Source: Acetobacterium sp. KB-1 (GTDB lineage Bacteria; Bacillota; Clostridia; Eubacteriales; Eubacteriaceae). Taken from it: 64,000 bases of DNA. Position 1 is the stretch's first letter; every line of letters starts with the position of its first letter. Of the stretch, positions 2,664 to 53,096 are shown in pieces. Under the pieces are notes generated by a model. The model was not told the DNA's origin. It worked only from the letters and a program-made list of their open reading frames with translations, and ran no database searches. The stretch spans positions 2,159,995 to 2,223,994 of the forward strand of contig NZ_CP030040.1 of assembly GCF_003260995.1 (NCBI RefSeq), in the 5' to 3' direction. The position numbers and the translations under genes were made by a program.

Positions 2664-3947
2664 ATGACGGAAAGTAATTATTTTTTTGTATCGATCGCTA
2701 TTTTTTTAATTGTGTATGCCTTAATCATCTGGGACAAATTCGATCGAACCCTTGTCGCTTTAGGCGGCGGCATGCTGATGGTTATTCTGAGAATTCTGAA
2801 TCAGGAATCTGCCATCGAGGCGGTTGATTTCGATACCATTACCCTTTTAATCGGGATGATGATGATTGTTATGGTCATGCGTCGAACCGGCGTTTTTGAA
2901 TACCTGGCCATTAAGGTATTAAAAATTTCCAAAGCCGATCCCCAGCGTCTGATTATTCTGCTTTCACTGATTACCGGTGTCTTATCGGGCTTGCTTGATA
3001 ATGTCACCACAATTTTGCTGATTATACCAGTAACGCTCAGCGTTGCCAAAGACTTAAAGCTTGATCCAATCCCCTTTATCATTGCTGAAATTTTCGCTTC
3101 CAATATCGGTGGCACTGCTACACTGATTGGCGATCCGCCCAATATTATGATTGGAAGTCAGGTTGGTTTTACCTTCAATGATTTTCTGCTTAATAATTCT
3201 GTCATCGCGCTGCCAATTCTTTTGCTGACATCCATTCTATTTGCGCTTTTATATAAAAAAGTTTTGATTGCCGATGAATCTGTCAAAGCCAAGGTTTTAT
3301 CCGTTAATGAAAAAGATGCCATCACTGATTTACCGCTACTACGAAAATCGATGATTGTCTTTACCCTTGTTATTCTTGGTTTTTTGTTCAATGGGGTGCT
3401 CCACATAGAATCACCGACTATTGCCTTATCGGGAGCGGTTATCCTCATCTTAATTTCAGGTATCAGCTCGGAAGAAATTCTTCACGAGGTGGAATGGAAG
3501 ACCATTTTCTTTTTCATCGGTCTCTTCATTCTGGTTGGTGGTATTGAAGCCACCGGCGTCATCGAAATATTGGCCAAAGAGGTACTGCTCTTAACTCATG
3601 GCGATGTTTTCATGACAACGCTATCGATCTTATGGGTTTCTGCAATTGCCTCAGCTTTTATCGATAATATCCCCTTTGTCGCCACGATGATTCCGATGAT
3701 CATGGAAATGGGGCATCTCTCCGGCATTGATATCTACCCGCTGTGGTGGGCACTTTCCCTGGGCGCCTGTCTGGGAGGGAACGGAACCGTTATTGGTGCC
3801 AGTGCCAATGTAGTCGCCATCGGGATTGCCGAAGCACAAGGTTACCGGATTACCTTTGGCCGCTATTTCAGAGTCGCTTTCCCCTTTATGATCTTTACGA
3901 TCCTGATCGCAACAGTCTATATGATCTTTCGATATCTGGCCTTCTAA
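2664..3947 (+). CDS. ArsB/NhaD-type (SLC13 superfamily) ion permease
   Basis: A 427-residue integral membrane protein with about 11-12 hydrophobic helices. The conserved re-entrant motif SNIGGTATLIGDPPNIMIG is diagnostic of the ArsB/NhaD/P-protein family, and a second inverted half carries GNGTVIGASANV. Family members exchange sodium, arsenite or organic anions; the substrate cannot be read from the sequence. An in-frame TTG at 2649 is part of the upstream Shine-Dalgarno region (TTGAGGAG), so the ATG at 2664, placed eight bases after GAGGAG, is the start. The gene is monocistronic, with its own promoter. No arsR or arsC lies nearby, so arsenite export is not favoured. Confidence 0.85.
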   Translation: MTESNYFFVSIAIFLIVYALIIWDKFDRTLVALGGGMLMVILRILNQESAIEAVDFDTITLLIGMMMIVMVMRRTGVFEYLAIKVLKISKADPQRLIILLSLITGVLSGLLDNVTTILLIIPVTLSVAKDLKLDPIPFIIAEIFASNIGGTATLIGDPPNIMIGSQVGFTFNDFLLNNSVIALPILLLTSILFALLYKKVLIADESVKAKVLSVNEKDAITDLPLLRKSMIVFTLVILGFLFNGVLHIESPTIALSGAVILILISGISSEEILHEVEWKTIFFFIGLFILVGGIEATGVIEILAKEVLLLTHGDVFMTTLSILWVSAIASAFIDNIPFVATMIPMIMEMGHLSGIDIYPLWWALSLGACLGGNGTVIGASANVVAIGIAEAQGYRITFGRYFRVAFPFMIFTILIATVYMIFRYLAF

Positions 3948-45617: not shown

Positions 45618-47384
45618 TTAACTTACAATAATTTGCTTTAAATACTTAATAACCAAATCAGCAAAGCGGTTAATGTCTTTAATATAGGCAAAATCCTTGC
45701 CATAGATCAGCTTTTCAGCCATCAGATCCTGCTCTTTTCCGGTGAAGACCCCCAGTACCATAATACCCTGTTGGCGGGCCGTTCGAACTTCCCGGGCGGT
45801 GTCAGAAATAGCCACCCGACCCCGATAGGCCTGGGTTAAACTATTAACCTGACCCTTTCCCACCTTAATGTCGTTGGGGCGGCCGTCGCTGAGGACAATT
45901 AAAATCTTATTATCTTCCCCTCGCTTAATGAGATCTTCACAGGTGGTCTTAATTGCCAAACCGTCGCGGTTGTTGCCGGAGCAATAATATTCAAAGATGT
46001 TGTCATTGGCTGAAAGGGGCGATTCGTAATCACGGAAGCGTTTGATGACTGTATAGTCAAGAAAACTGGAAAAACCCAGCACCCGATTAGGAATCCCCAG
46101 TTGGGTTAATGCCATCGCCAGAATATAGGCTTGAATCGCAACATTGGACTGGTTACGTCGCTGGGAGCCACTGGAATCGATAAGGATATCCACCACAAAG
46201 CTCCCCTTGTTATTATCAATATTTTTTACAAAAACCTTGTTATTACTGCTACGACCAATCCGCCAGAGTTTGCTGGGAATCAGCCTCCCGGCATCAGAAG
46301 GGATGGCGTCGATAATTTCTTCCTGAACCAGGGTTCGGGACATGCTTTCCCGAAGCTTATTAATGTTGCGCTTGAACACCTTGTAATTAGCGCGAAACAC
46401 ATCGGTATTTTTAATCTGGTGCCGTTGCACATATTTCTGTTGAAATTCATTATCACTGTCACTCCGGACGACGCCATCGGTCATATGAATCCGGCAGCTG
46501 CCATGGGCGTCTTTGCATACCCGGTTCTGAAGCTTTTTGACTTCACTGATATCCAAAAACGATTTTCCGTAATAGTAAGCCACTTTTTCATAGATTTTTT
46601 CGATATCCTCTTCCTGCACCCGCAAAATCCGGTTGTCAGCATCATTGGATACGTTGGACTGATCTCCTTGGGATTCTCCCAGCAGAGCCTCGGCAATGTC
46701 TTCAATGGAGGCTTCAATGTCCAGGTCTTCGGGCTCGTCAAACATCTCTTCTAACATAAAATCAGAAAAATCGCCGCGGAGATGATTTTTATTGTGGCCC
46801 GATTCACTGGAATCACCGCTATCGCCCTCCACAAACATCGGAAAATATTTCACATAGATTTCTTCAATGCCTTTTAATAACTCAATGGTATCCTCCCGAT
46901 CCTGTAGGTTTTCCAGATCGCTGGCGATGTTTCGGGTTTCGGTGTCCATCATCGGCGCTTTACCAATCTTTTTTAGGATCATCGCGTGACGTACCTTTTC
47001 CATCAGATCGTCGGTGTGAAGCTTATAATAATTGCGAAGAATATCATCGTAGGCATCTTTGCGGATATCATAAACTCCGGGGCGTTCGGCAATAATTTTT
47101 TCTTCCACTACCACATCACTCCCCATAGCAATAAGACTCAGGAGAATATCCTTATTAAAACCCGCCCGATAACGACTGATGACGTATTTCTTGACACTGG
47201 GCCAGTTAATGAACTTTCGCCTTCCCCCGGCAGTTACGGCATGGTAAAGGGCCACATTTTTTGAAATAAAGCTCTTTTCTCCGACGTCCATGTTTTCATC
47301 GTAATCACCGGAAACCGTCCACATCAGATTGGATACCCGGTTGTCAAATTCATAGTCCTGATAGATCCATTTTGCATCCTTCAT
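45618..47384 (-). CDS. VWA-domain (NorD/CobT-like) protein
   Basis: A 588-residue protein. The N-terminal two thirds are helical and acidic in the middle (about 190-280). The C-terminal von Willebrand A domain (about 390-588) has a MIDAS motif in DILIDSSGSQRRNQS (DxSxS) and a later LIVLSDGRPND. NorD/CbbO/CobT-type VWA proteins work with a MoxR AAA+ partner as metal-inserting or activating chaperones. The partner is encoded 42 bases upstream. No nitric oxide reductase, RuBisCO or cobaltochelatase gene is near, so the client is unknown. Ribosome binding site GAAGGGAGGAACAGG. Confidence 0.85.
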   Translation of the reverse strand: MKDAKWIYQDYEFDNRVSNLMWTVSGDYDENMDVGEKSFISKNVALYHAVTAGGRRKFINWPSVKKYVISRYRAGFNKDILLSLIAMGSDVVVEEKIIAERPGVYDIRKDAYDDILRNYYKLHTDDLMEKVRHAMILKKIGKAPMMDTETRNIASDLENLQDREDTIELLKGIEEIYVKYFPMFVEGDSGDSSESGHNKNHLRGDFSDFMLEEMFDEPEDLDIEASIEDIAEALLGESQGDQSNVSNDADNRILRVQEEDIEKIYEKVAYYYGKSFLDISEVKKLQNRVCKDAHGSCRIHMTDGVVRSDSDNEFQQKYVQRHQIKNTDVFRANYKVFKRNINKLRESMSRTLVQEEIIDAIPSDAGRLIPSKLWRIGRSSNNKVFVKNIDNNKGSFVVDILIDSSGSQRRNQSNVAIQAYILAMALTQLGIPNRVLGFSSFLDYTVIKRFRDYESPLSANDNIFEYYCSGNNRDGLAIKTTCEDLIKRGEDNKILIVLSDGRPNDIKVGKGQVNSLTQAYRGRVAISDTAREVRTARQQGIMVLGVFTGKEQDLMAEKLIYGKDFAYIKDINRFADLVIKYLKQIIVS

Positions 47385-47426
47385 GGCCTGTTCCTCCCTT
47401 CTTCAGGTGTTGGGCCGATTCTGGCC

Positions 47427-48347
47427 TTAGCCGGAAAAAACATCGGCACAATCCCAGCTTTCCCGGATCCGGGTTTTGATGACATCCAGAACGATTTCTT
47501 TTTCAAACTGATCGAAGGTTTTTCCGACCACCCCCATATCGACCGCCAGCATCGGTTTTAAGCCTCGGCGGATGGTGCGCAGACTCCCGATAATCCCCCG
47601 CAGATCGACAGACTTGGTGGAGATTTCCGAATTTCTGGCCTTGGCTTGAAGATCCAAAAAAACACCGGCAAACTGGGCCAGAATTTCCGGGTTGGCATCC
47701 GGAAAATAATCCTTTAAAATCAGCATCAGGGTTTCTTCCTCAATTTGGGGAATATCAATGGTCATAAAACGAGATACCAGGGCTTCATTTAGCTCCTTAG
47801 TCCCGGCATATTCATAATTCATGGTGCCGATAAACCGGGTGGCGTCGTGGAGCTTGATTTTCTCATAGCCCGGCACATCGATCACCTTTCGATAATCCAG
47901 AGCCGAGTGGAGTACCACCAGGGCATCGTTTTTTGCCATATTGATTTCGTCAAAAACGCCAAAGCCGCCGTTTATGGCACACTCATAAACCGATCCTCGT
48001 CGCAGTCGTACCTCATTATCAATAAAAGTATCGGTGCCAATCAGGCTGGAGCTGTCGGTGTTGACATGGAAGGAGGTGTTCCACTGAGGACGGTTAAAAA
48101 GCTCGCAAATATTATCGGCCAGGACATTTTTCCCGGTGGCCTTGGGACCGGAGAGTAAAATGTTCTCGCCCTCTAGAATGGCAGTAATACACATCGACCA
48201 GATGTCCTTGCCATAAAAAACAGTTTCGGTACTGGGAACCCGATCCTGAAGACGCTCCTCCAGTTTATAAAAGTGTTTGAAATATTTTATATCGTCAAGC
48301 AGCTTTTCGCTGATTCCCTGTTTTAGTAATTCCTGTGTTAATCTCAT
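47427..48347 (-). CDS. MoxR-family AAA+ ATPase (NorQ/CbbQ-like)
   Basis: A 306-residue ATPase. Walker A is LSGPKATGKNVLADNI (about residues 77-92), Walker B FGVFDEINMAKNDAL, sensor 1 FIGTMNYEYAGTKELNEAL and arginine region ALVSRFMTIDIP. It is the AAA+ motor of a MoxR-VWA pair that remodels or activates a metalloprotein. The ribosome binding site GAAAGGAAAACG precedes an ATG start. It is transcribed ahead of the VWA gene. Confidence 0.9.
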   Translation of the reverse strand: MRLTQELLKQGISEKLLDDIKYFKHFYKLEERLQDRVPSTETVFYGKDIWSMCITAILEGENILLSGPKATGKNVLADNICELFNRPQWNTSFHVNTDSSSLIGTDTFIDNEVRLRRGSVYECAINGGFGVFDEINMAKNDALVVLHSALDYRKVIDVPGYEKIKLHDATRFIGTMNYEYAGTKELNEALVSRFMTIDIPQIEEETLMLILKDYFPDANPEILAQFAGVFLDLQAKARNSEISTKSVDLRGIIGSLRTIRRGLKPMLAVDMGVVGKTFDQFEKEIVLDVIKTRIRESWDCADVFSG

Positions 48348-48819
48348 TCGTTTTCCTTTCTGTCAATGCCATGCATCGATTTTGTCAGTTTATTTAGAAT
48401 GATTTGAATATAACACAAAACCCAGCGGAATAGTTAGAAAAAATGCAAAAGCACAAAAATTTATCCTTTTTTAAGACTCTTATCTTAAACCGCCAAATAC
48501 CGGTAATTCATATAAAGCCGGTTGTTCTAAGTTCCGCTAAAAAGAGCAATCCTCCAAAGCGAAGGATCGCTCTTTGATATCCAGTTGGATGATCGGTTTC
48601 ATTGCATGGCCTCGTGATTGTATTTCTAAATGAACTCTTTAAGCATAAAGCCGCGCATGAAGGTCTCCTGACTGTGGTTTATCTGTTTTTGTACCCTCCG
48701 CGGGTACTCGATCTTTTTTTATATGGTAAAATATGCTATAGTTAACACAAAACTTCTTGCATCATAAGGCTAATAAAAAATATAACAGCTTATTTAATAT
48801 TCAATTGGAGGGATAAAGA
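48348..48819. other. Intergenic region with a hairpin, no gene seen
   Basis: This 472-base divergent region holds a hairpin at 48541-48575 (AAAGAGC-ATCCT...AGGATC-GCTCTTT) with a short T run on the minus-strand side, and an A/T-rich stretch near 48720-48745 that could hold the promoter of the gene at 48820. I see no recognised riboswitch. Confidence 0.5.
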
Positions 48820-49428
48820 TTGATTACGCTAGAGCAAATTATGTCGATTTCAAAAAGCGACTTACAAGAAGCGTCAAAGACATTAAACAAAGATGATATT
48901 CCGCAGCTTGTAGAATGGCTCTCCTTAAAAGATAACACCATTAGATATCAGGTATTTCTCATTCTGCAAAACAGATCATTCTTTTTTGACGATGTTTATC
49001 CGTATTGGGATACCTTCAAAAGCAAACTAAAAAGTGAAAATTCTTATCAAAGAAATATCGGACTGAATTTGATTGCCAACAATGTAAAGTGGGATACCGA
49101 AAACAAAATAGACGATACCATTGATAAATATCTACAACTCCAAAACGATGAAAAACCCATCACGATACGCCAATGTATTCAGTCATTGGGCGAAATAGCT
49201 TCATCTAAGCCTGACTTACATGATAAAATAGCTTCTAGACTTATTACCTTTAATCTCATGTCCATTAAGGAAACCATGCGAAAATCAATACTGCTTGATC
49301 TCTTGAAGGTACTTCTTGTTATCAGGAAAGAGCATCGAACAGATAAAATAGAAAACTTTATCCAAAACGCATTACTAGGAGAGATATTGGATAAAAGGTC
49401 AAAAAAACAAATAGAAGCCCTGCTATGA
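48820..49428 (+). CDS. Hypothetical protein, possible HEAT-like helical repeats
   Basis: A 202-residue soluble, all-helical-looking protein that I do not recognise. Repeated amphipathic pairs such as IPQLVEWLSLKDNTIRYQVF and KSENSYQRNIGLNLIANNVK, with spacing near 40-45 residues, resemble HEAT/armadillo repeats. The start is TTG at 48820 after GGAGGGATAAAGA. It has an AT-rich composition and stands alone between divergent and tandem neighbours. A scaffold or binding role is only a guess. Confidence 0.6.
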   Translation: MITLEQIMSISKSDLQEASKTLNKDDIPQLVEWLSLKDNTIRYQVFLILQNRSFFFDDVYPYWDTFKSKLKSENSYQRNIGLNLIANNVKWDTENKIDDTIDKYLQLQNDEKPITIRQCIQSLGEIASSKPDLHDKIASRLITFNLMSIKETMRKSILLDLLKVLLVIRKEHRTDKIENFIQNALLGEILDKRSKKQIEALL

Positions 49429-49620
49429 TCATAACGCATGAATCATTAACCACTAGTTGAAAATAAACAAGTTGCTGTTACAAATATGTACATCATGACA
49501 TTAGTATCAAAATAACAATCAACATTTTGGTCCTGCGCCCGCATTTTAGTCGGGAATTTATGTGCATAAAAATTGTTCGTTATTTCTACCCCCTAAAAAT
49601 TTCAAGAATAGGAAATCCTG

Positions 49621-51189
49621 ATGAAAAATTTAGAAAAAAATCATTACTTCTCTTTAAAAAGCTATGACCCCCATACCCATGGCGGCCAGTATCTGGCAAA
49701 CCTTTCAACCGCCAACTGGGCATCTGAAGCTTTATTTACCGCCCTGGAACTGGATCTTTTTGAAATTCTTAATTCCTTCGGAGATAATGGCGCCGATGCC
49801 CAAGCACTTTCAGAAAAAATCGAAACTGATGCCACGGCATTGTCGTCATTTCTGCCGCTACTGGAAAGTCTGGGGCTTCTTTTTTGTTATCAGGGCAGTT
49901 ACAGCAATGCCATCATAACCAAGTGCTATCTGCTTTCATCCAGTCCAGATTATCTGGGCGACACCATCAAACTGCGGCAATTACAATCTCAAAAATGGCG
50001 TCAGTTGAAATCTTCACTACTAAAAAACACACCAACTGAACAAAATAGTGGGCCGGAGTATTTAGCCAATAAACAGCTTAATCAACTAAAGATTAAGGCA
50101 ATCCATGAATTGACTCGCATGAAAGCGCTTGAATGCGTTAAATTCTTCCCCGCCTTGTCCGGGAAAATTCTAATCGGCGGTCCCGGAGCTCAAACAATGG
50201 CAGATTGTTTTCTCCATGCCTTTCCCGATCTGGAGATCACCCTGCTTTGCGACGATGATCCCTTTCCGATTGACGTTGCTGTTTTTAATGATCCCCAAGC
50301 ACAGCCGATCGATACCAGTTCCTTTGATAAACTGCGCGCTGCCTCTGCCAAAAATCATGAGGCCTATGCTCTGATTATCTTCACCCGTTTGTCAATCAGT
50401 AAGGATCAGCCGCTGTTTCTAAATCAAGTACTCGCCTGTTTACCGATGCTTAAGCCAGATGGTATCCTGATGCTTCACGACGCCTTTGACGAGCATGCAA
50501 CCCTGATGGCCAGGTTATCTGGAATCAATCGGATGATCCATTTTGAGGGCCAGGTTTGTTCCGCAAATGAAGTCATCCACAAATTTGAGGCAGCCGGTCT
50601 CACCACCACTGCTCTGATTCCGCTTGAAACCGATACTGCTGTCATTTTTTCCGGAAAATCGCCATCATTTGTGGAAGCTCTGGCTTTGACACCGATGCAA
50701 CGCCTCAAGCATCCAATCCTTAACATCGGCTTTGATGATGTCTTAGAAATTACCACCGATTCGGTGGTGGTTACCGAATTTGCCAAAAACAAATGTGCCT
50801 TTGGTTGCTCATCGGCCAATCTCAAACATTGTCAGGCCAACGAGATCCCCTTTGAAGAAACCGGCCGATTAATCTCCCGCTACACCAGGGCTTTTCTAAT
50901 TAAAGGAACCCCGGGAACCGGAGAATTTCAACGAAAGATCTTAGAAGCAGAACGCTTAGCCTTTATTGGCGGTTTTCACAAGGCCTTTGCCTTCTGGTCC
51001 GGACCCTGTCACATCTGCCCCGCCTGTGATTTGGATAAACCGTGTCTTAACACGAAAAATCGCCGTCCCTCAATGGAAGGGTCCGGCATTGATGTCTTCG
51101 AAACCGTAAGAAACAACGGCGAAACCTTAAAGACACTGGCTTCTAAGAATGAGTTTGTTAAATACTATGGTTTATTACTGCTTGAATAA
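49621..51189 (+). CDS. Methyltransferase-like / DUF2284 metal-binding fusion protein
   Basis: A 522-residue protein in three parts. Residues about 18-130 match an O-methyltransferase dimerisation winged helix ([20 protein letters not shown]). Residues about 150-335 resemble the SAM-binding domain of plant/bacterial O-methyltransferases, but the glycine loop reads [10 protein letters not shown] and is degenerate (GGPGA rather than GxGxG). Residues about 385-522 are a DUF2284 domain with cysteines 392, 396, 404, 463, 466, 469 and 475 (CAFGC, then [15 protein letters not shown]), suited to an Fe-S cluster or zinc. Ribosome binding site AATAGGAAATCC. No operon partner is seen. A corrinoid or metallo-cofactor methylation role is speculative. 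Confidence 0.75.
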
Positions 51190-51202
51190 TCGCCTTACCC
51201 TC

Positions 51203-51231
51203 AAAAAAAAGCACGGATAACCGGTGCTTTC
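51203..51231 (-). terminator. Terminator for the minus-strand nitroreductase transcript
   Basis: On the minus strand GAAAGCACCGG-TTAT-CCGTGCTTT with one bulged base, followed by T residues. It may also help end the methyltransferase gene on the plus strand. Confidence 0.65.
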
Positions 51232-51245
51232 AGACTATCAAAAAA

Positions 51246-51363
51246 GATAACCCCGTACCGACAATTGTTACATCATGTTGTACGCATCGGAGCGGACACT
51301 GCTTCGCCTGTCCGATTCCGCAGCGAACAACAAATTAACAATTGGTCGGTACGGTCGTTTATC
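51246..51363. repeat. Imperfect 118-base inverted repeat between convergent genes
   Basis: Outer arms CCGTACCGACAATTGTTA (51253-51270) and TAACAATTGGTCGGTACGG (51336-51354) pair almost perfectly, extended by GATAA/TTATC. Inner parts GTTGTACGCATCGGAGCGGA and its partner near TCCGATTCCGCAGCGAACAA also pair, so nearly the whole element can fold into one long hairpin. Eleven-base direct repeats CACGGATAACC lie outside it at 51212-51222 and 51377-51387. It could be a degenerate miniature transposable element, a structured 3' UTR or a small RNA. Confidence 0.7.
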
Positions 51364-51400
51364 GACAACCTCAAACCACGGATAACCCATTTTTTTTTGA

Positions 51401-52000
51401 TTATTCAATGACAATGACGCGCCGTTCAATGGGCTCGAAAACTTTTTCAATAGGGTCTTCGGTAGGCACACCAAAGGGCATCTGGGCAATCAGTCGCCAA
51501 TCCGACGGAATCAGAAAAGCAGTCTTTACATCATTATCGATGATCGGATTATAATGTTGCAGGCTTGCACCCAGACCTGCTGCTGACAATTGCGTCCAAA
51601 TGGCAAACTGCAACATCCCATTGCCCTGCTCAGCCCAATCCGGAATCCGATCCCGGTAGGGTGAAAACCTTTCCATCAAACTTTTAGTAACAGACGTATC
51701 ATCATAAAACAGCAATGTTCCACATCCTGCGGCAAAGCTGCTGATCCGATTTTCAGTAGACCGAAATTCATCAGCCAGAATTTTTTTTCTGAGTGTTTCC
51801 ATCACGATACTCCAGAATTCCAGATGTTTCTCTCCAAATAATACTGCTACCCGCTGACTTTGGCAATTAAATGCCGAAGGTACGTGCTTCGTTGAATGGT
51901 CGACGATCTCCATTATTTCTTCCGCAGTAATGGTACTTTCATCGCTAATTCCATATATCGAGCGCCTTTGCTCTATTGCTTCTTTAAAATCCAATGGCAT
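51401..52000 (-). CDS. Nitroreductase family protein (Frm2/HBN1-like)
   Basis: A 199-residue FMN-dependent oxidoreductase. It begins FKEAIEQRRSIYGISDES, has the family segment HVPSAFNCQSQRVAVLFG (about residues 38-57), and lacks the long C-terminal part of NfsB, matching the short Frm2-like subgroup. Such enzymes reduce nitroaromatics or quinones with NAD(P)H; the natural substrate is unclear. Ribosome binding site AGGAGTACTTAC. It is monocistronic between terminators. Confidence 0.88.
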   Translation of the reverse strand: MPLDFKEAIEQRRSIYGISDESTITAEEIMEIVDHSTKHVPSAFNCQSQRVAVLFGEKHLEFWSIVMETLRKKILADEFRSTENRISSFAAGCGTLLFYDDTSVTKSLMERFSPYRDRIPDWAEQGNGMLQFAIWTQLSAAGLGASLQHYNPIIDNDVKTAFLIPSDWRLIAQMPFGVPTEDPIEKVFEPIERRVIVIE

Positions 52001-52104
52001 GTAAGTACTCCTTTTCTATTTAAAAAATATTTGTTCGTATGACCTCATACTAATCATTATACCTTAATTACCCACAAATTCAAATTTTTCTGCAAAACGC
52101 TAAA

Positions 52105-52128
52105 AAACAGCGTCTTGATGACCCTGTT
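52105..52128 (-). terminator. Terminator of the ispF-to-transketolase operon
   Basis: On the minus strand AAACAGGGTC-ATCAA-GACGCTGTTT with one mismatch and six T following, 30 bases after the transketolase C-subunit stop. Confidence 0.75.
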
Positions 52129-52157
52129 TTTTTGCTTCTTTGCTTAGGTTTTTGCTA

Positions 52158-53096
52158 TTATTTTCGGCCGATGGCTTTTTTAGCAGCCGCTACAATATCT
52201 TTCGCCGTTAAACCGTATTTTTCCATCAATGGCGTAACCTTACCGGATTGTCCAAAGAGATCCTTAACACCAACCCGTTCCAGAGGTACTGGGGCGACAT
52301 CGCATAATACTTCAGCAACAGCACTGCCCAGGCCGCCGATAATGCTGTGTTCTTCAGCCGTAACAACAGCACCGGTAACAACGGCAGCGTCTTTTATGGC
52401 ATTTACGTCGATGGGTTTAATGGAACCCATATTTAATACTCTGGCCGAAATATCCTCTGCTTTTAAAAGCTGTGCCGCTTCCAGAGCTGGTCCCACCATC
52501 AGACCGGTGGCAATAATGGTTACATCATCACCGCTTTTTAATAAGCCGGCTTTTCCTACTTCAAATTTATAATTTTCATCGAAAAGAACGGGTACGTCAC
52601 TGCGGCCCAAACGAATATAAACAGGTCCGTCAATTTCCATTGCGGCATCCATCATCTTTTCTGTTTCGATCGCATCTGCCGGTGATAAAACCGTCATATT
52701 GGGGATTACCCGCATCAGCGCAATATCTTCAATCGACTGGTGTGAACCGCCATCTTCACCTACTGAGATCCCCGAATGAGTTAAGGCAATTTTTACATTC
52801 AGCTTCGGGTAACAGATACTGTTACGAATAATTTCATAGGCTCGTCCAGCGCCAAAAATAGCGAAGGTGCTGGCGAAAGGAATCTTTCCTGCGGTTGCCA
52901 AACCGGCGGACATTCCCATCAGGTTTGCTTCCGCAATCCCGACATTGAAATGCCGTTCGGGACAGGCCTTTTTAAAGACGTTGGTCTTTGTTGCTCCTGA
53001 GAGATCGGCATCCAAAACCACCAAATTTTTGTTTTTTTCGCCCAGCTTCACTAAATATTCGCCATATGCCTGTCGTGTTGATTTTTTATCTGCCAT
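52158..53096 (-). CDS. Transketolase, C-terminal (pyrimidine-binding) subunit
   Basis: A 312-residue split-transketolase subunit containing the Pyr domain and the C-terminal domain. Seen: VVLDADLSGATKTNVF, FNVGIAEANLMGMSAGLAT (catalytic Glu), THSGISVGEDGGSHQ and VYIRLGRSDVPV. With the N-terminal subunit encoded just upstream it transfers two-carbon units between sugar phosphates and supplies pentose and erythrose phosphates. 1-Deoxyxylulose phosphate synthase is excluded by the split form and motif set. Ribosome binding site GGAGG; the gene begins two bases after the N-subunit stop. Confidence 0.93.
   Translation of the reverse strand: MADKKSTRQAYGEYLVKLGEKNKNLVVLDADLSGATKTNVFKKACPERHFNVGIAEANLMGMSAGLATAGKIPFASTFAIFGAGRAYEIIRNSICYPKLNVKIALTHSGISVGEDGGSHQSIEDIALMRVIPNMTVLSPADAIETEKMMDAAMEIDGPVYIRLGRSDVPVLFDENYKFEVGKAGLLKSGDDVTIIATGLMVGPALEAAQLLKAEDISARVLNMGSIKPIDVNAIKDAAVVTGAVVTAEEHSIIGGLGSAVAEVLCDVAPVPLERVGVKDLFGQSGKVTPLMEKYGLTAKDIVAAAKKAIGRK

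Follow-up and report, generated by a model that had tools for sequence, protein, structure and literature searches.

BzaC is the 5-hydroxybenzimidazole O-methyltransferase of anaerobic vitamin B12 lower-ligand synthesis, encoded in the bza operon between cobT and bzaD/bzaE, and is said to methylate the lower ligand, as the title of a published paper has it. The literature found on BzaC in this sense consists, as far as the excerpts go, of reviews, genome surveys and the like. Within this partial coverage, which does not include two key BzaC papers, nothing was found on a DUF2284 domain of BzaC or on its split, and the excerpts containing the term DUF2284 do not concern BzaC. Here we describe a solitary gene of Acetobacterium sp. 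KB-1, located at positions 49621-51189 of a 64,000-nucleotide stretch of contig NZ_CP030040.1 (hereafter the window), whose 522-residue product was identified by sequence comparison as a paralogue of BzaC that carries DUF2284.

Compared with BzaC fused to DUF2284, the window protein is related over its whole length and has the same domain order and the same seven cysteines. Unlike BzaC, it is encoded outside the operon, has lost motif I for binding of S-adenosylmethionine (SAM), the next aspartate and the motif IV histidine, and bears its strongest constraint on DUF2284. The short form of BzaC, found in the same genome and in loci L187 and L188 (genomes and loci are numbered with the prefixes G and L), has a homologous methyltransferase domain, keeps the SAM motifs and lacks DUF2284, being the mirror image of the window protein. 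Ancestry and constraint, as read from the sequences, give good support to the view that the window protein is a catalytically dead BzaC displaced from the operon and retained because of its DUF2284 domain. We lean towards the view that it is a trans-acting part of dimethylbenzimidazole synthesis.

Two further families share a DUF2284-like C-terminal part with the window protein: NF041536, an ArsM/DUF2284 selenoprotein named a methyltransferase/DUF2284 protein, and MbdU (NF045648). The window protein scored 71.1 bits against the former (cut-off 575) and 69.6 bits against the latter (cut-off 600), over its C-terminal part only, and these curated cut-offs rule out the selenoprotein methyltransferase-DUF2284 families. 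Unlike the selenoprotein NF041536, the window gene contains no in-frame TGA. RdmB puts the dimerising O-methyltransferase fold to another use, without methyl transfer, and still binds SAM, whereas the window protein has lost the SAM loop itself.

Domains of the window protein and its paralogue in the bza operon

The KB-1 genome is a single contig of 3,988,268 bases, in which the best other match to the window protein is a 350-residue protein (39% identity, residues 11-354). It is encoded near 3,847,500 of G000:C1 in the gene order ThiC-like, ThiC-like, CobT, methyltransferase, radical SAM, radical SAM. A cobalamin riboswitch heads this bza operon, and NCBIfam models matched BzaB (711.6 bits, cut-off 700), CobT (449.2 bits, cut-off 319.3) and BzaD (752.2 bits, cut-off 450) within it. 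Descent of the window protein from BzaC is supported by this identity and by a DUF2284 tree that groups it with the fused BzaC proteins of the genus; its position, outside the operon, is not that of a bzaC gene. The initial annotation had noted that the gene stands outside any operon and concluded that nothing about the substrate can be learnt from its context. The first part held: the gene starts 192 bases past a 202-residue frame matching no known family, and a nitroreductase gene converges on it. The conclusion did not, because a clue lies outside the window, in a paralogue that is BzaC and is usually itself the fusion. The features are as follows.

49621..51189, + strand: putative BzaC-derived pseudo-methyltransferase with DUF2284, 522 residues (open reading frame, Pfam, paralogy to operonic BzaC, orthologues)
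49651..49920, + strand: N-terminal dimerisation region, residues 11-100 (PF08100 at residues 21-104)
49921..50676, + strand: predicted pseudo-methyltransferase core, residues 101-352 (fold match and lost invariant positions)
50164..50196, + strand: degenerate SAM motif replacing DILDVGTGSGA (comparison with operonic BzaC)
50371..50406, + strand: motif IV without its histidine, replacing LIILSNIIHAYA (histidine column matched to human ASMT)
50476..50496, + strand: HDAFDEH, with H286, D287 and H292 kept in ten standalone rows (alignment)
50749..51183, + strand: DUF2284 domain, residues 377-521 (PF10050, 78.8 bits; median dN/dS 0.066, eight orthologues)
50794..50832, + strand: first cysteine group, C392, C396 and C404 (invariant in 25/25 aligned fusions)
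51007..51045, + strand: second cysteine group, C463, C466, C469 and C475 (invariant in 25/25 aligned fusions)
51401..52000, - strand: nitroreductase-family gene (PF00881), also found after the standalone gene in orthologous loci of the main subclade

The gene is a single open frame with an ATG start. Profile searches of its product matched PF08100 (Dimerisation) at 42 bits against a cut-off of 25.6, and PF10050 (DUF2284) at 78.8 bits against a cut-off of 25, while no Pfam SAM-methyltransferase model matched the middle part at E 0.1. Identity to the own-genome BzaC amounts to 64% over residues 12-50 and 44% over residues 51-100. Half of the 14 cysteines lie within DUF2284, and these seven are the ones invariant across the aligned fusions, in agreement with the seven-cysteine domain proposed from the sequence at the outset. 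DUF2284 is a cysteine-rich module that probably binds an iron-sulfur cluster or a metal.

Structure prediction, suggested in the initial annotation as a check, was informative for the methyltransferase part only. The AlphaFold model has a mean predicted local distance difference test score of 77.7. Its residues ~14-348 superpose on the SAM O-methyltransferase RedM (8tjj; Z 26.0, root-mean-square deviation 3.0, 308 residues aligned), and the same region superposes on human ASMT (4a6d; Z 25.9, root-mean-square deviation 4.0, 318 residues aligned), so that the expected methyltransferase-like fold was recovered. We make no structural claim for DUF2284, because model confidence is low there (several segments below 50) and fold searches were limited to the methyltransferase part; a sequence search retrieved no solved structure related to the domain.

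Loss of catalytic motifs and constraint on DUF2284

Operonic BzaC proteins of the family, fused or short, keep D(V/I/L/A)GxGSG, the following Asp-Ile and the motif IV histidine. Standalone orthologues occur in ten Acetobacterium genomes, the window's included, with the G007 copy cut by the contig start. In all ten, the aspartate of motif I (DxGxGxG type) is missing, as is the motif IV histidine, which is invariant in 32 operonic rows; the window protein also lacks the aspartate after motif I. The histidine, H259, shares an alignment column with a histidine of human ASMT, a column that we take to hold the catalytic base in related enzymes. Among the 62 positions of the methyltransferase region that are invariant in these 32 rows (drawn from the family and L040 only), 21 are absent from every standalone row (D185, G191 and H259 among them), 18 are kept (including H286, D287 and H292) and 23 are mixed. 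The textbook motif I is not universal in operonic BzaC either, as L128 and L130 lack its aspartate and the loops of L131 and L136 are altered. With both the SAM loop and the motif IV histidine lost, the methyltransferase half of the window protein is probably catalytically dead, as the degenerate loop had already led the initial annotation to suppose.

If the protein were an active methyltransferase, its SAM pocket would be unusual and its substrate a different one. Such an enzyme would fit the predicted O-methyltransferase fold and the retention of G187, H286, D287, H292, D338 and T339 in the ten standalone rows. However, none of these rows has the motif I aspartate (185), the last loop glycine (191) or the motif IV histidine (259), and motif I varies between subclades, as expected under relaxed constraint, which makes such an enzyme very improbable. 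An intact SAM pocket in an already characterized fusion had been named as the finding that would speak against a degenerate scaffold; the architecture is indeed that of a known enzyme, BzaC, but the pocket is not intact.

We then compared selection on the two halves, using the ratio of nonsynonymous to synonymous substitution rates (dN/dS; pairs with dS >= 1.6 were left out). Across the eight main orthologues, the core had a mean identity of 61% and a median dN/dS of 0.265, and DUF2284 had 89% and 0.066. For core and DUF2284, respectively, the seven fused operonic BzaC proteins of the genus gave 76% and 71% identity and dN/dS values of 0.12 and 0.228 (four usable pairs each), and those of other genera gave 55% and 67%, with 0.262 and 0.219. 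The striking value is the very low dN/dS on DUF2284, which these comparisons show to be the most constrained part of the protein. Furthermore, 21 fused BzaC proteins share 40 invariant positions in DUF2284, and 38 of these are conserved throughout the standalone rows.

These values also bear on whether the gene is a relic on its way to becoming a pseudogene. Its core has lost the SAM motifs and is less conserved than that of the fused BzaC proteins of the genus, and in genome G010 the gene has shrunk to a remnant. Against this, no standalone row contains an internal stop, DUF2284 is strongly constrained, and purifying selection acts even on the core (0.265). We consider such a relic highly unlikely.

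Inverse distribution of the standalone gene and operonic DUF2284

In the loci examined, BzaC usually occurs as a fusion of a methyltransferase with DUF2284. The count across genomes that the initial annotation called for found it, as operonic BzaC, in 20 of the 40 genomes of the family and, with 7/7 cysteines, at 21 of 22 bza loci outside the family, which were picked by BzaD matches, and G262 by a BzaC match. A search with BzaC added two whole fusions, one cut fusion, two short forms and two loci with DUF2284 as a separate gene. What looks odd in KB-1 is that the fusion lies outside the operon and appears catalytically dead, while the operonic copy is without DUF2284. In these comparisons L070, cut at a contig end, was not counted as short BzaC, and the alignment omits L033-L039, second copies of genomes already used (L034 is partial and L038 is the same record as L052).

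Some of these loci have further peculiarities. L196:4508-10400 and L197:4292-10200 are bza-like operons in which two neighbouring genes encode the methyltransferase and DUF2284; both operons also encode a radical SAM protein resembling BzaE and lack BzaD. L194:7319-8560 is a 412-residue frame that matches CobT and, at its end, BzaC-type DUF2284; it looks like the product of a deletion that fused the two genes. The bzaC genes of L126-L128 are overlapped by longer antisense frames.

Within Acetobacterium, short BzaC and the standalone gene occur together in ten genomes (G000, G003, G005, G007, G009, G011, G012, G015, G016 and G018), and this recurrence rules out an assembly artefact or a chance frame, which the initial annotation had kept in view. 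Seven genomes (G001, G002, G004, G010, G013, G014 and G017) have fused BzaC and no standalone gene. The two occur together in no genome of the genus, and the 13 fused genomes of other genera are likewise without the standalone gene (Fisher p 5.1e-5 for 10/0/0/7, uncorrected for kinship). Ten of the 11 genomes with short BzaC thus carry the standalone gene; in the eleventh, G008, its site is unread because the contig begins ~143 bases before EcfA (the distance from EcfA to the standalone gene is 425 bases in G009). By sequence comparison, the standalone gene and operonic DUF2284 were shown to be exactly inverse wherever both can be read. The small genome G006 has neither form of BzaC nor the standalone gene; at L153 ~3081-3700 it contains a decayed remnant of a bza operon with pieces of bzaA, cobT and bzaC.

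In a tree of the methyltransferase region (43 rows), the standalone rows form one group (99/96), and the short label requires at least three changes, all forced by starred branches. We infer from these that short BzaC arose by three separate losses of DUF2284, since the domain is unlikely to have been regained at the same position. In the DUF2284 tree, the standalone proteins form a clade (98/96) that joins the seven fused BzaC proteins of the genus (96/93), and we place more trust in this tree for the origin of the standalone gene. A loss in the opposite direction is recorded in G010, a fused genome that keeps a piece of the standalone gene at the syntenic site, flanked by the ECF-operon riboswitch and the nitroreductase gene. 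This piece spans 83-88 bp in comparison with four orthologues and 61 bp with a fifth, at 76-82% identity (blastn E down to 7e-18, five-sequence database), and it shows that the standalone gene was once present in G010 and has since been lost.

Several observations weigh against this history. The three changes could be one loss and two regains. In the methyltransferase tree, long branches separate the standalone rows from every operonic row, those of other genera included; the two trees differ, and they do not fix the age of the duplication. Genome G008 has short BzaC and no standalone gene found on its truncated contig, and G001 is without a remnant, the fused genomes tested for one being G010 and G001. 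Behind short bzaC, a signal of decayed DUF2284 was found in G008 only (5.6 bits, 0/100 shuffles that kept single-base content only), with no signal in G009 or G018. Finally, the core dN/dS of fused BzaC from other genera is close to that of the standalone core, so that the latter evolves faster only in comparison with its own genus.

Candidate roles of the standalone DUF2284

We propose that bzaC was duplicated and that the copy outside the operon became the window gene. The methyltransferase half of the duplicate would have died and its DUF2284 half been retained, with the operonic 350-residue BzaC carrying out O-methylation without DUF2284 and the window protein supplying DUF2284 in trans to the anaerobic dimethylbenzimidazole pathway. 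The step served would come after BzaC and would most likely be that of the B12-dependent radical-SAM enzyme BzaE. More speculatively, the dead domain might dock to BzaC as a heterodimer.

The BzaE reaction swaps a methoxy for a methyl group, and to our knowledge it has no known electron or cofactor partner. We examined 62 loci for a link to BzaE, six of which were set aside as cut; they are not all independent (L133 and L139 belong to one genome). Of the 54 loci that contain bzaE, 41 encode the fusion of BzaC with DUF2284, two (L196 and L197) have DUF2284 as a separate adjoining gene, and 11 lack it. For ten of these 11 (nine Acetobacterium genomes and G488), the genome encodes a BzaC-type DUF2284 protein at another site. 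The two loci without bzaE, L187 and L188, have no DUF2284, and at L189 and L190 the fusion and bzaE are present with no bzaD in the locus. This co-occurrence points to BzaE rather than to O-methylation or BzaD.

This assignment meets its own difficulties. The link to BzaE depends on the two BzaE-less loci, and L188 seems, from its sequence, to have lost DUF2284 and bzaE in a single deletion relative to L189: the two bza operons (L188:7592-8686 and L189:7679-9226) share 96% identity along 5.2 kb, up to the point where the methyltransferase domain ends. L188 has the gene order bzaA-bzaB-cobT-bzaC that excerpts of a review give for M. thermoacetica, with 5-methoxybenzimidazolyl cobamide as product, although the same review elsewhere lists BzaD and BzaE for this organism (PMC8123684). 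The dimerisation region of the standalone proteins is proportionally no better kept than the rest and is poor in G011 and G012 (34% and 29%), so nothing favours heterodimers. Nor does any riboswitch or bza gene adjoin the window gene.

The neighbourhoods of the other standalone genes raise another possibility. An ECF-UbiD-HydA-HydB-UbiX cluster adjoins the standalone orthologues, mostly upstream and on the opposite strand (ECF transporter operon, then UbiD, hydantoinase A and B, UbiX and a PAC_bac protein), and a cobalamin riboswitch lies near the ECF operon in seven of the eight standalone loci scanned, the exception being L041. The window protein might then belong to this other B12-regulated pathway, the pseudo-methyltransferase with DUF2284 having been recruited at least twice and the match with short BzaC being a side effect. 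Five solo proteins bear on this point (G488, G599, G623, G670 and G808). Like the window protein, they combine a worn-out methyltransferase with DUF2284 and lie outside a bza operon; in that of G488 the SAM core is mostly deleted. Four of the five, from G599, G623, G670 and G808, adjoin genes of the UbiD-HydAB cluster, and the two solos tested in the DUF2284 tree, G488 and G808, fall on a separate branch and not with the standalone clade. In the four unrelated genomes with cluster genes, neither BzaC nor BzaD was found among the best 3 candidates per genome scored in the BzaC search and the best 4 in an earlier one, which makes these absences soft; G599, G623 and G670 probably belong to the best-4 sample. 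For G808, in which no BzaD was found, the genome is 91% complete. Solo proteins beside this cluster are hard to call chance, and they suggest that the cluster touches lower-ligand chemistry.

Within Acetobacterium, however, the cluster does not predict the standalone gene. In the window genome the gene is retained although no EcfA match reached E 1e-120, which favours a role in the bza pathway. The orthologues adjoin the cluster and the window gene does not. Conversely, G001, G002, G004, G010 and G014 have EcfA without the standalone gene (the matches in G004 and G014 are flagged for stops), and the fused genomes G010 and G001 also have the cobalamin riboswitch of the ECF operon. The relation to operonic DUF2284, by contrast, is exact where it can be read. 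We regard membership in the ECF-UbiD pathway as the less likely reading. Genome G488 looked at first like a clean second split of BzaC and was later not counted as independent proof, because its solo belongs with the other solos, four of which lie beside the UbiD-HydAB cluster.

Both sets of observations could tentatively be combined, although we think this unlikely to hold in full. DUF2284 would be a hitherto unrecognised part of anaerobic dimethylbenzimidazole synthesis, an iron-sulfur module that serves BzaE and not the O-methylation and normally resides on BzaC; in part of Acetobacterium it would have been separated onto a dead BzaC copy that forms a pair with the live enzyme, and the B12-riboswitch-linked ECF-UbiD-hydantoinase pathway would have independently adopted a similar dead-BzaC carrier. 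If true, that pathway would also handle benzimidazole-like lower ligands. The trans-acting role itself would assign DUF2284, an orphan domain, to a pathway and to a function open to experiment, and BzaC in its usual form would seem to have a second function, apparently other than methyl transfer. The genus would then offer a natural experiment in which what was one fused enzyme is now divided between a live enzyme and a dead carrier, and the DNA still shows the opposite losses of the two.

The ECF cluster was recorded at L044:1-8294, L202:4908-14023 and L205:1-6800 as EcfA-EcfT-S component-UbiD-HydA-HydB, with UbiX and PAC_bac where seen and a cobalamin riboswitch nearby in Acetobacterium. Its S component (L044) matched no Pfam, NCBIfam or PDB entry. 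Around the window gene, an Rfam search of 48400-52200 up to E 1 gave no match, and no riboswitch for the gene, and promoter- and terminator-like sites were no more frequent than in shuffles. Further upstream, at 45618-48347 on the minus strand, the window encodes an AAA ATPase (AAA_5) and a CobT_C/VWA protein, a pair that resembles MoxR-VWA or CobS-CobT pairs.
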